NCBI GenBank assembly: GCA_030041985.1
Contig: JASIAM010000235.1
Coordinates: 1-36,139 of the forward strand
Source: Bryobacteraceae bacterium
GTDB taxonomy: Bacteria > Acidobacteriota > Terriglobia > Bryobacterales > Bryobacteraceae
Reading direction: 5' to 3'
Length of the DNA: 36,139 nt
In this document: piece after piece, positions 6,478 through 10,717 of the stretch
Layout of the letters: every line of letters starts with the position of its first letter
How positions within the stretch are numbered: the first letter of the stretch is position 1
The notes under the pieces: model-generated
Seen by the model: only the letters and a program-made list of their open reading frames with translations
Database searches by the model: none
What the model was told of the DNA's origin: nothing
Made by a program: the position numbers and the translations under genes

Positions 6478-7524
6478 ATGCCCTTGCCTACCCTCGACGC
6501 GCTTGAAAGCGCGGCCCGAATCGTTCACCGGGTAATCCCACCCACGCCGCAGATCCGCTGGCCGCTGGTCTGCGCGCGGGCAGGTGCGGAAGTCTGGATT
6601 AAGCACGAAAATCACACGGAAGTTGGCGCATTTAAACTCCGGGGAGGTCTTGTCTACATGGATAGGCTTCGCCGGCGGGAACCGGCCATAACCGGTGTGA
6701 TTGCGGCTACGCGCGGCAATCACGGGCAAAGCGTCGCCTTTGCAGCGGCGGCCGCGGGGTTACGCGCCACGATTGTAGTTCCCCACGGAAACAGCCGTGA
6801 GAAAAATGCGGCCATGCGCGCGCTCGGCGCAGAATTACTCGAATACGGCCGCGATTTCCAGGAGGCCTACGAACATGCAACCTGCCTGGCAGAAGCCCAA
6901 CATCTGCACCTGGTGCGATCCTTTGATGAATCGCTGGTTTGCGGCGTCGCCAGCTACGCCTTGGAACTATTTGGCGCGGTGCGCGATCTAGACGCCGTTT
7001 ACGTTCCGATTGGCATGGGTTCCGGCATTTGCGGTGTGATTGCGGCGCGCAACGCCCTGGGACTGAAGACGGAGGTGATCGGTGTGGTTGCCGCGCGAGC
7101 GCCCGCCTATGCCCTCTCATTTGCAGCCAGGCAGCCAGTTTCCGCGCCGGTGGGAGATACCATTGCCGATGGGATGGCTTGTCGCGTGCCCGACCCGGCG
7201 GCGCTCGCAGTCATAGGGGAAGGCGCGGCCCGCGTGGTCACGGTCGAGGACGAGGAAATCGAGGCGGCCATGCGCGGCCTCTTCTCGGATACGCACAATG
7301 TCGCGGAAGGCGCTGGAGCCGCTCCGCTGGCCGCCCTCCTTCAGGAACGCAGCCGGATGAACGGTAGTCGCGTGGCGCTCATTCTAAGCGGCGGCAACGT
7401 CGATCGCGATGTTTTGCCAGAGTGTTGGCCGGGTGAATGTCTCACTGCACCTTCATCACGAATAACGTCTGGTCGTCGAAGGCATGAATGGCGAATTTGT
7501 CCAGGTCGCGGAAGATCTCGGTGA
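6478..7524 (+). CDS. PLP-dependent threonine/serine dehydratase-like enzyme
   Basis: This 348-aa fold-type II PLP enzyme probably deaminates threonine or serine to a 2-oxo acid. The Schiff-base lysine is K53 in GAFKLRGG. The PLP-contact segment TRGNHGQSVA, the phosphate-binding loop GMGSGICG and the terminal LSGGNVD are present. There is no C-terminal ACT regulatory domain, so it resembles the short catabolic or broad-specificity dehydratases rather than biosynthetic IlvA. Paralogues acting on other hydroxyamino acids cannot be excluded. The gene starts 43 bp after glnD and may share its transcript. The last ~27 codons (after about residue 320) are Arg- and Ser-rich, look non-homologous and are antisense to the end of the SpoIIE gene, so the original stop codon may have been lost. 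Confidence 0.88.
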   Translation: MPLPTLDALESAARIVHRVIPPTPQIRWPLVCARAGAEVWIKHENHTEVGAFKLRGGLVYMDRLRRREPAITGVIAATRGNHGQSVAFAAAAAGLRATIVVPHGNSREKNAAMRALGAELLEYGRDFQEAYEHATCLAEAQHLHLVRSFDESLVCGVASYALELFGAVRDLDAVYVPIGMGSGICGVIAARNALGLKTEVIGVVAARAPAYALSFAARQPVSAPVGDTIADGMACRVPDPAALAVIGEGAARVVTVEDEEIEAAMRGLFSDTHNVAEGAGAAPLAALLQERSRMNGSRVALILSGGNVDRDVLPECWPGECLTAPSSRITSGRRRHEWRICPGRGRSR

Positions 7525-9196
7525 TGATCTGCGCTGGTGATTTTGGGCACTGCGCGCGCACCAGAGCAGCCAGCCGGGCCCTGCCGTATTCCACTCCTTC
7601 CGTATTGATTTGGTCGGTGATCCCATCCGAATACAGAACTATCACGTCTCCGCTCTCGGCCTGGAACGGCACTTCTTCGTATTCGCGCGAATCCAGCAGG
7701 CCCAGGGGAACGCCTTCCACCCTCATCCGCAGGATTTCATCTCCGCGGCAAATCAGCGGTGGGAGCGCTCCGGCATTGGCCATGATCACCTGGCGCGCTG
7801 TTGGATCCCAGAGCAGCACGCAAAGGGTTACATAGCGGGCCTCTACCTTGCGCTCAATCAGGGCATCATTCAAAGCGCGCAACAATTGCGCGGGACGGCG
7901 CCAGCGCGGAGCCAGAGTACGCAGCAGGCCGCTCATCAGGCCGCCGTACAAAGCGGCGGCGGCTCCCTTGCCGCTCACGTCGCCGAAGGTGATTACGGTT
8001 TGCCCGTCGCGGTGTTCGTAGATATCGTAGATGTCTCCGCTGATGAGCCGCGCGGGTCGAAGCTGCACCGCGGACGCCAGTCCTTCGATCAGCGGACATT
8101 CACTGGGCAGCAGGACGCGCTGCAATTCCTTAGCGGCTTGCAAATCGTCCTCCATGCGCCGTTCCCGCGCCGCCAGTTCCTCGTACAATCGGGCGTTTTC
8201 TATGCTGGTGGCGATCTGCGGAGAGAGCAGCGCCAGCGTGCGCGCGTGCTCATCGGTGAAGTAGGCCACGCGTTCGCTCTCCAGATCCATTACACCGATC
8301 ACACGATCCTGCAAGACGAGCGGCACCGCCAGTTCGGAGCGAATATCCGGGTGTGATGCAATGTAGCGCGGGTCCTTTTCGGTATCGTCCACGCGAATCA
8401 CTTCGCGCGATTCCGCGGCCGCGCCCGTGATTCCTTTACCCAAAGCGATGTTATCGATATTCACGCGCTGGTCGTAGCGGATGCTGAAGCGGTGGCGCAG
8501 CGCGTGTGCCTGCGCGTCCACCAGCAATATGCTGAATGCGTCGTAGTTGATCAGGTCGCGCATGGTGCTGGCGATTTTGCGCAGTAGTTCGTTCAGATCC
8601 AGGATGGAGGAAAACTCGCGCGAAAGCTGCGCCAGTGTCCGCAGAGTGCGATTGTGGCGCTCCACGCGCCGGTACAAGCGGGCGTTTTCGATAGCAATAC
8701 TGACACGCCCGGCGATGAGGCGCAGCAGCGCCCGATCGTACTCGTTATAGGCGTTGACACGCGTGGACTGCAAGTCGATGACACCCACCAGCTTGCCACG
8801 CGCGGTCATGGGAACCGCCAGCTCGGTGCGCACGGCATCCACGCTGTTCAGGTACCGGGGATCGCTGCGCACGTCGCCCACCAGAACAGGCTCGCGGCGC
8901 GCTGCCGCCACGCCGGTGATGCCTTCACCCAACGTGAGCGACAGATTGGTGACTATTTCTTCGCGATGGCCGACGGCATAGCGGATGCGCAACTGCTGCT
9001 GGCGCTCGCTGTAGAGAAGAATGGCGAACAGGTCGTACGGCAGAACCTTGTGGATAATGCGCGCGACGTTGCTCAACAGTTGATCCAGATCCAGCGTGGA
9101 TGCGGTAGCGGCGGACACCTCCAGCAGGAAATCGAGCAGTTCGGATCGCTCGCGGAAGCGGATGGTAGGTTTGCGTGCTGGGACAGGCTCAGGCAT
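7442..9196 (-). CDS. GAF-GAF-SpoIIE (PP2C-type) serine phosphatase
   Basis: This 584-aa cytoplasmic signalling protein has two GAF sensor domains (about residues 15-170 and 190-345), a charged helical linker containing [20 protein letters not shown], and a SpoIIE/RsbU-type phosphatase domain to the end. Phosphatase metal motifs are all visible: [36 protein letters not shown] and [11 protein letters not shown]. Such enzymes dephosphorylate anti-sigma-factor antagonists. I see no partner antagonist or anti-sigma gene in the window. ATG 9196 (MPEPVPARK) overlaps the deoC stop by 8 bp, so it is the third gene of an rpiB-deoC operon. The 3' end overlaps the convergent dehydratase by 83 bp. Confidence 0.93.
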
Positions 9197-10100
9197 GGAG
9201 ATGGGCAGACGGGGCGCCGGCGCCGGTGGCCTCCACAATTTTCACACTGGCACTGGCTCCGATGCGCGTGGCGCCCGCGGCGGTCATAGCCTTCAAATCT
9301 TCCAAGGTGCGGATGCCGCCGGAGGCCTTCACACCCATTTCCGGGCCGACCACGGCACGCATCAGGGCCACATCGTGCGCGCTCGCTCCCGCTGGCCCAA
9401 AACCCGTGGAGGTCTTCACAAAATCGGCGCCCGCCAGTTTGGCCAGGCTACAGGCCACAGCCTTCTGATGATCATCGAGCAGGGCCGTTTCGAGAATTAC
9501 CTTCACGATAGCGCCCGCTTGATGGGCCGCTTTCACAACCGCCTGAATATCGAGCTTCACCGCTTCGTGGCCGCCCGACCGCAAAGCGCCGATGTTGATC
9601 ACCATATCGAGTTCCGTAGCTCCTGCCCGCAAGCAAATTTCGGCCTCGGCCACCTTGGCTTCCGTGCTGGTGGCGCCCAGAGGGAAGCCGATCACCGTGC
9701 AGACTTTGACCGGCGATCCTGCCAGTTCCGCGCGCACCATGGGCACCCAATAGGGATTCACACACACACTGGCGAAGCCGTACTGCCGCGCTTCGCGGCA
9801 CACCTTGAGCACATCCGTGCGCGTGGCTTCGGGCTTGAGGATGGTGTGGTCGATGAGAGCCGCAATCGCCGGATCGATTTTCGTCAGCCGCTCGCTGGCG
9901 GAAACGCGATCAGCGCCCGCTGCTACGATTTCTTTCGTATTGCGGACGCACGTCTGCGGGCAGCGCTGCTGGCACCCGGGACAAGACTGGTCCGGCAGGT
10001 TGAGACCTTCGCCCTTCCTTGCAGGCAGGCCCCCTCCGATGCGTGCCAGAATCTCTTCACCGATCTGCGCTACCAGACTGTCCAGCTCCGCCGGCGTCAC
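9189..10100 (-). CDS. deoC: Deoxyribose-5-phosphate aldolase with an N-terminal helix and four-cysteine extension
   Basis: This TIM-barrel aldolase splits 2-deoxyribose-5-phosphate into acetaldehyde and glyceraldehyde-3-phosphate. In the 303-aa chain the Schiff-base lysine is K229 ([12 protein letters not shown]), and the relay residues are D165 (ELDMVINIG) and K258 (VKASGGIRT). The catalytic core begins only near residue 75. Before it are an amphipathic helix ([18 protein letters not shown], residues 5-22), a Gly/Lys linker, and a cluster C40-x2-C43-x3-C47-x3-C51. Helix plus linker is the layout of encapsulation peptides that direct enzymes into bacterial microcompartments. The Cys cluster might bind metal. 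It starts with GTG, overlaps the rpiB stop by 4 bp and overlaps the phosphatase start by 8 bp. Aldolase function is firm, targeting is inference. Confidence 0.93.
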
Positions 10101-10717
10101 CGGGAGGCCCCTTTCCGGTAGCGCTGCTCGATGTCGTGAATCTTCTGCACTCTTGCCTGGTGGCGTCCCCCCGCGAACGGCGTAGCCAGCCAGGTGCGCA
10201 GCACATCTTCCGCCTGAGTAGCGGTTAGGAGGCGCGCGCCCAGCGTGAGCACGTTGGCGTCGTTGTGTTCCCGGCTATTGCGCGCAGAGGGCTGATCGTA
10301 GCAGAGGGCGGCGCGAATTCCCGGAACCTTGTTGGCGGCGATGGCCGAGCCGATGCCCGCGCCATCGATCAAAACGCCCCGCGCCGCCGCGCCGGAGGCC
10401 ACCAGCTCAGCCACCAGGACCGCCACATCCGGATAATCCGCCGGCTTCTCCTCATGCACGCCGACATCGCGAATAGCCAGGCCGAGGGCTTCGAGCACCG
10501 GTTTGAGGCCTTCCTTGAGCCGGTAGCCGCCATGATCAGCGCCCAATGCTAGGGTTTTCTCTGGCGGCGCAGCGGGCATTTCTTCGGCAGATACTTCCAG
10601 CAGATGCACGCCCCGGGCTGCCATCAGTTCGCGCGCTACTGCCGTTACAATCGCGCCCCGCAGCACCTTCAGCTCGCCAGTGGCCGGAACATCCTGGGCT
10701 GTGATCACCTGCTTCAT
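10097..10717 (-). CDS. RpiB/LacA-family sugar-phosphate isomerase with EutQ-like N-terminal extension
   Basis: The RpiB fold runs from about residue 55 of this 206-aa protein: [14 protein letters not shown] (D61, H62), [42 protein letters not shown]. In classical E. coli-type RpiB the base is a cysteine in LICGTGIG. Here that position is Asp118 (LIDGAGIG), so the substrate or chemistry may differ from ribose-5-phosphate. The first ~45 residues ([14 protein letters not shown], then [20 protein letters not shown]) are extra. They resemble the N-terminal segment of EutQ and other microcompartment-locus proteins. The frame extends further upstream, but ATG 10717 (MKQVITAQ) starts the recognisable part. 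It is the first gene of an operon with deoC and the phosphatase. The 26-bp gap to the divergent NicO gene holds both control regions. Confidence 0.85.

Follow-up and report, generated by a model that had tools for sequence, protein, structure and literature searches.

Probable shell-targeting extensions on a distally encoded RpiB–DeoC pair of a Bryobacteraceae bacterium

In this study, we analysed a stretch of 36,139 nt of DNA from a Bryobacteraceae bacterium (GCA_030041985.1, contig JASIAM010000235.1, positions 1-36,139, forward), referred to here as the window, which encodes side by side a sugar-phosphate isomerase of the RpiB/LacAB family and the deoxyribose-phosphate aldolase DeoC. Both enzymes carry N-terminal extensions and, judged by related genomes, these tags probably load the two proteins into a protein-shelled organelle. 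We think it likely that rpiB and deoC form a distal cargo operon, similar to that of the sugar-phosphate-utilising (SPU) type, of a microcompartment resembling the ACI type and PVM-like loci, the shell genes of which lie on other contigs of the same genome (355 contigs, completeness 98%). What has been computed are the homologies of the extensions, their co-occurrence with shell genes, an anatomy common with SPU loci, and the shell and aldehyde dehydrogenase (AldDH) genes of the genome. An earlier note on this DNA had proposed that the pair are cargo enzymes with shell genes elsewhere; the genomic shell genes, the SPU-like DeoC extension and the co-occurrence support this proposal, from which we infer encapsulation.

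The two extensions and the shell genes of the genome

Both PF01791 (DeoC) and PF02502 (RpiB) are matched in the window. The NCBIfam deoC model covers residues 79-289 of the 303 residues of DeoC, leaving about 78 additional N-terminal residues, and the RpiB models cover residues 55-198 of 206, leaving about 54. The extensions, which the earlier note had described as absent from the standard enzymes, are thus borne out by family-model coverage, but they are not one kind of thing: that of DeoC is a helix, and that of RpiB is a folded module of the EutQ type. DeoC is present in a single copy, this being the sole DeoC match in the whole genome, while the genome encodes two further RpiB proteins; since their matches begin only at query residues 44 and 56, both lack the extension.

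According to the AlphaFold model, the RpiB extension is confidently folded into strands and a helix (pLDDT 84-97 in ten-residue blocks of residues 1-50). In a single hhalign comparison, the RpiB-extension profile aligned with Escherichia coli EutQ over 44 columns, of which 41% are identical (probability 94, E 1.5e-7), with RpiB residues 1-46 lying against EutQ residues 1-50, so that the resemblance to EutQ pointed out in the earlier note holds. The same profile aligned with E. coli EutT over 35 columns (E 2.1e-7), the module being located at the N-terminus of the K-12 protein (L120:9506-10306), and with the C-terminal tails of AldDH proteins over 31 columns (E 3.5e-9); the AldDH of the window's genome, too, ends in this module. 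In a scan of 126 loci with 15,951 reading frames, the module profile matched 110 frames at E ≤0.3. These comprised AldDH tails, EutQ, EutT, one frame with the module on DeoC, and RpiB proteins or pieces of them, two of which are joined to DeoC or lie in broken frames; the next matches were three unrelated frames at E 0.41-0.8. A combined-module profile matched 92 of the 121 genomes of the family-level sample, and the frame sizes among the matches listed are compatible with RpiB and with the AldDH tail, whole or in part. In genomes with another shell type, which have beside BMC-P an AldDH about 27% identical to that of the window's genome and were counted apart (e.g. G105, G213 and G084), a class II aldolase carries the module at its N-terminus and also ends in a helix-like tail (L273:11435-12562, L274 and L275, respectively). 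Two further leads were set aside. EutA was suggested as a carrier by a match of EutQ to the NCBIfam EutA model, but a search of E. coli EutA with the module profile gave no hit. Among solved structures, the best match of the module was a weak one to the E3-binding domain of pyruvate dehydrogenase E2 (2eq9, E 0.025), with a Pfam match below the cut-off pointing the same way; this likeness is taken as chance or convergence.

For Salmonella EutQ, a recent study reports that deletion of residues 9-41 (helices H1/H2) separates shell from cargo, with EutQ staying with the cargo, that EutQ lacking residues 62-99, which contact cargo peptides, stays with the shell, and that residues 1-99 deliver sfGFP to the compartment (PMC12487888). 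The region that holds H1/H2 is the one aligned with RpiB residues 1-46, and by position the module therefore corresponds to the shell-binding half of EutQ and may itself bind a shell. RpiB has no counterpart of the helices H3/H4, which bind cargo peptides according to the same text (PMC12487888), and the module is placed on an isomerase here and C-terminally in AldDH.

The catalytic domain of RpiB differs as well. Asp118 (window 10364-10366) is found in all 32 aligned microcompartment-linked RpiB proteins (16 from the class, 4 from SPU loci, 9 encoded distally in genomes outside the class and 3 of families f4 and f8), as against a cysteine in all three ordinary ones, namely the two others of this genome and E. 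coli RpiB. We take this cysteine to be catalytic in ordinary RpiB proteins, and the exchange may mean a different substrate or mechanism.

For DeoC, AlphaFold predicts a helix at residues 3-20, a low-confidence linker and then the barrel. In this model the extension has the build of an encapsulation peptide, with a terminal helix of about 15-20 residues and a flexible linker. The helix and linker described in the earlier note are thereby seen in the prediction, whereas amphipathicity was not confirmed: 5464 of 20000 shuffles of residues 3-20 gave a hydrophobic moment as high, and since the E. coli EutE peptide, used as positive control, gave no signal either (5947 of 20000), the test is without power. 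Among solved structures, no match was found for the extension. The linker motif Cys-x2-Cys-x3-Cys-x3-Cys is invariant in 19 aligned rows and occurs in 30 of 37 helix-bearing DeoC proteins. This frequency was taken from loci found with the whole DeoC, leaving out 80 named loci found with a DeoC-extension scan, because the pattern of that scan was the motif itself and the count would have been circular. As seven proteins without the motif (G008, G001, G092, G189, G219, G029 and G207) retain the helix, the helix is the constant part of the extension; a metal, iron–sulphur or redox site are guesses at the role of the cysteines. The helices VTRAELQFLV (G029) and LTRSELETIV (G092) resemble the tail VTRSELIALV of a class II aldolase encoded in the window's genome, as is expected if both enter the same shell.

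The window holds no shell genes. The remark in the earlier note that these are missing is true for the window and not for the genome, where the search it had proposed found two BMC-H genes (C62:17937-18164 and C260:41430-41657) and three BMC-P genes (C62:17029-17854). C62 ends in the order class II aldolase, BMC-H, BMC-P, BMC-P, BMC-P, with the aldolase interrupted by the contig end, and its BMC-H exceeds the NCBIfam EutM cut-off. At the end of C260, BMC-H is followed by an acetaldehyde-type AldDH, for which the best NCBIfam model is the acetylating acetaldehyde dehydrogenase (550 bits, below the cut-off of 620). The end of C61 bears an AldDH C-terminal tail, the gene being divided between the two contig ends, and because this overlaps the C260 piece at only 92-94% identity (L007, L211), the assembly probably mixes strains. 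AldDH thus stands on a satellite locus separate from the main shell locus, as it does in G109 and G198, and in the latter two genomes 19 kb of shell locus contain no match to the class II aldolase of the window's genome. This aldolase has a C-terminal tail, which may serve for targeting.

Co-occurrence of the extensions with shell genes

The distribution of the extensions was determined in samples of 220 genomes of the class and 347 of the phylum. DeoC was scored as extended when its match started at query residue 1-35 (class sample; matches listed down to about E 2e-52), RpiB when its match started at query residue 15 or before, and AldDH of the studied type at E 1e-139 or better. The PF00936 search covered the genome of the window alone; relatives are called shell-less when they have neither BMC-P nor AldDH of the studied type. 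By this scoring the DeoC match starts at residue 1-35 in at least 40 of the 220 class genomes; for most of the remaining matches listed, the start falls near 60-82. Four more helix-bearing DeoC proteins were seen on reading loci (G189, G219, G029 and G207), of which those of G189 and G219 are included in the class counts, while the DeoC proteins of G125, G173 and G185 are left out of the survey.

Over the whole class sample, BMC-P is present in 87, the studied AldDH in 78 and extended RpiB in 46 of 220 genomes. Among the DeoC matches listed together with G189 and G219, all 42 genomes with extended DeoC have BMC-P and all 42 have AldDH; for extended RpiB the figures are 45 of 46 and 46 of 46, the one genome without BMC-P (G034) being 88% complete. 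G029 and G207, with the helix seen on later reading, also have both BMC-P and AldDH. Fisher tests of extension against shell gave p values between 5e-21 and 1e-26, with kinship ignored. In the phylum sample, the DeoC-extension profile matches 64 of 347 genomes, and 60 of these 64 have BMC-P, as against 140 of 347 overall. The four exceptions are G293, which is 75% complete; G466, with the cysteine-rich piece but no helix in the frame; G385, where the matched frame, of 100 residues, does not encode DeoC; and G523, a match of the same kind that was set aside by its 100-residue frame. The earlier note had named extensions that are general among acidobacteria without shell proteins as the finding that would speak against its reading, and in these samples they are not general there.

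A tree was built from 60 DeoC cores together with E. coli DeoC. The states of helix and AldDH coincide for 59 of the 60 cores: 37 have both, 22 have neither and one (G047) has AldDH alone. There are nine changes of state on the best tree, or three if only well-supported branches are counted. A test of independent pairs found three usable pairs, in which AldDH agrees in a mean of 2.9 of 3 and is never opposite (p 0.25).

Gene order and alternative explanations

The 80 named loci are acidobacterial by title, bar three that are apparently misassigned, and their flanking DNA extends over up to 10 kb per side and is often shorter. Within these bounds rpiB is matched in 79 of the 80 and a phosphatase gene in 77, and genes for shell proteins, AldDH or class II aldolase are matched in none. 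G109, G021, G198 and G153 each have deoC and BMC-P on one contig, with over 1 Mb between them. RpiB and DeoC are fused in one chain in G116 (L119:2117-3835), and in G079 (L117:6593-7687) and G293 (L251:6465-7616) DeoC itself bears the module and there is no RpiB domain. Another relative has a second, shortened copy of the rpiB start (L134:8485-8694), about 0.9 kb upstream of its rpiB.

The neighbourhood in 79 of 80 loci and the fusion would also suit a different explanation, in which RpiB and DeoC are held together by their extensions in a free cytosolic complex, the cysteine motif perhaps binding a metal, and the co-occurrence with shells is incidental. The motif does look like a metal-binding one; however it is absent from 7 of the 37 helix-bearing DeoC proteins, the tags track AldDH over some nine changes on the DeoC tree, an untagged deoC remains where BMC-P is absent, and the module is homologous to the part of EutQ for which shell binding has been published (PMC12487888). 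We consider this complex unlikely.

Twenty shell-less genomes were read (G137, G133, G013, G177, G085, G145, G117, G093, G165, G101, G075, G193, G081, G098, G057, G063, G204, G181, G201 and G005). In all 20, deoC adjoins the phosphatase gene, neither helix nor cysteine motif is found upstream of the DeoC catalytic domain, and the deoC stretch contains no match to rpiB; G105 and G213, with the other shell type, likewise have an untagged deoC beside the phosphatase. It follows that the phosphatase accompanies deoC, and that rpiB and the tags accompany the shell. The tie to the phosphatase, to which the earlier note had drawn attention, is therefore real as a conserved gene order, but as it persists without BMC-P it is no evidence for encapsulation; phosphatase and deoC may be connected by an older tie of function or regulation. 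The same genomes bear on the idea that the pair descends from an SPU locus, with vestigial tags on enzymes that are now both cytosolic. The SPU-type Asp118 and the SPU-like DeoC extension at a site far from shell genes would agree with this, but vestigial tags should outlast the shells, and they are absent in 20 of 20 shell-less genomes; moreover they are conserved across many genera, the conserved columns including the helix start, the linker motif and columns of the module. That the tags are vestigial in this way is in our view highly improbable. Equally little credence is due to ordinary clade-specific N-termini without a targeting role, whose match with the shell would be phylogenetic hitch-hiking: the independent-pairs test, which cannot reach significance, leaves room for it, but helix and AldDH switch together within one genus (neither in G098, both in G102 and G126), the RpiB tag is homologous to EutQ, EutT and the AldDH tail, and the DeoC tag resembles the aldolase tail.

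Several points weigh against a cargo operon, which we nevertheless prefer. The Fisher tests ignore relatedness, and with three independent pairs on well-supported branches the tree test is weak. G047 has AldDH and BMC-P yet an untagged DeoC, and 36 of the 78 AldDH genomes were not scored as extended (among them G029 and G207, which later showed the helix); the pair would for these reasons be an optional cargo. A single-copy DeoC would also have to meet any cytosolic need, its helix is not measurably amphipathic by a test that was also silent on the EutE control, PduL, which bears on the recycling of CoA, was not found in the genome, and the RpiB module was undetected at E 0.05 in four SPU-type loci. 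Finally, encapsulation, shell binding by the RpiB module, substrate and flux are inferred.

Coordinates of the genes and protein segments are collected in Table 1. Relatives of RpiB begin at the same methionine as the chosen start, and for the phosphatase an ATG near 9196 is likelier than the TTG at 9238.

Table 1. Genes and protein segments of the rpiB–deoC run in the window
Feature	Position	Strand	Remarks
rpiB, RpiB/LacAB-family sugar-phosphate isomerase, 206 aa	10097..10717	-	ATG at 10717; longest frame opens 10762
RpiB N-terminal module, residues 1-46	10580..10717	-	homologous to EutQ residues 1-50 and AldDH C-terminal tail
RpiB catalytic domain, residues 57-198	10124..10549	-	model match; Asp118 replaces Cys of ordinary RpiB
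deoC, deoxyribose-phosphate aldolase, 303 aa	9189..10100	-	GTG start, 4-base overlap with rpiB stop
DeoC N-terminal helix, residues 3-20, encapsulation-peptide-like	10041..10094	-	predicted structure and relatives
DeoC linker motif Cys-x2-Cys-x3-Cys-x3-Cys, residues 40-51	9948..9983	-	alignment
DeoC aldolase domain, residues 79-289	9234..9866	-	NCBIfam deoC model
GAF-GAF-SpoIIE phosphatase, third gene of run	7442..9238 (longest frame)	-	conserved neighbour of deoC

Relation to known microcompartments and implications

The DeoC and RpiB pair is that of the SPU microcompartments, as described in the sections on this type in two surveys (Axen 2014 PMC4207490; Sutter 2021 PMC8217296). Four loci from the phylum outside the class (L243, L244, L245 and L248) have DeoC and RpiB among shell genes and so are of the SPU type, the first three also with AldDH. 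As to the alignment with SPU enzymes that the earlier note had suggested, the DeoC extensions are alike in three of the four: a helix-like stretch and a cysteine-rich linker are present in L243, L244 and L245, with cysteine spacing in L244 identical to that of the window DeoC, and neither was found in the stretch inspected of L248. Asp in place of Cys in RpiB is a further likeness. The SPU RpiB proteins, in contrast, lack a detectable module; in addition, the window pair lies far from shell genes and beside a phosphatase gene, and the shell locus of its genome holds a class II aldolase.

That locus fits the ACI type (Sutter 2021 PMC8217296) and the two PVM-like loci of Candidatus Solibacter (Axen 2014 PMC4207490), as far as the passages on these types describe them: a BMC-P triplet with BMC-H, a class II aldolase with a C-terminal extension, and AldDH on a satellite locus. 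As differences, DeoC or RpiB are not reported as cargo in these passages, and the hydroxyacid dehydrogenase of the ACI main locus was not found among 10 frames tested in the loci of two relatives (L108 and L222), the locus of the window's genome ending at a contig end. A distal DeoC with a tag is already in print, since the passage on HO microcompartments reports distal DeoC-family genes, some with N-terminal extensions like encapsulation peptides; it names neither an RpiB partner nor a EutQ-type module (Sutter 2021 PMC8217296). In openly licensed papers, supplements apart, we found none linking DeoC or RpiB to ACI shells and no description of the module on RpiB or AldDH.

If the pair is indeed a distal cargo operon, RpiB and DeoC would process sugar phosphates, plausibly from the breakdown of DNA or nucleosides. 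Within the shell, DeoC, recruited through its encapsulation-peptide-like helix, would yield acetaldehyde and glyceraldehyde-3-phosphate, and this acetaldehyde would be oxidised to acetyl-CoA by the EutE-like AldDH. RpiB would be anchored at the shell by its EutQ-type module, as AldDH would be via its tail module, and might help to hold DeoC there. A bolder version, to which we give even chances, is that the module of about 45 residues is an unnamed portable shell-docking domain and that the acidobacterial RpiB doubles as a EutQ-like adaptor anchoring the DeoC pathway to a shell whose genes lie in another place. The carriers of such a domain would be EutQ, EutT, RpiB, the AldDH tail, the class II aldolase of the other shell type and some DeoC proteins. 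With RpiB as an adaptor, one shell would serve two aldehyde-making aldolases and would gain what seems to be missing from ACI loci, a signature enzyme that produces the aldehyde.

The survey text lists ACI among the types that have AldDH but no obvious signature enzyme making its aldehyde (Sutter 2021 PMC8217296). A conserved distal DeoC–RpiB operon with shell-type tags is a candidate acetaldehyde source for an ACI-like compartment in a phylum common in soil, and the function of this compartment thereby becomes testable. Cargo genes can escape a survey of shell loci, and tags such as these can be used for finding them. Furthermore, the module connects the pair with the assembly mechanism that was described for EutQ in 2025 (PMC12487888), and predicts that shell binding by this region belongs to a domain rather than to EutQ alone. 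The tags suggest both what the organelle does and how its enzymes are recruited.

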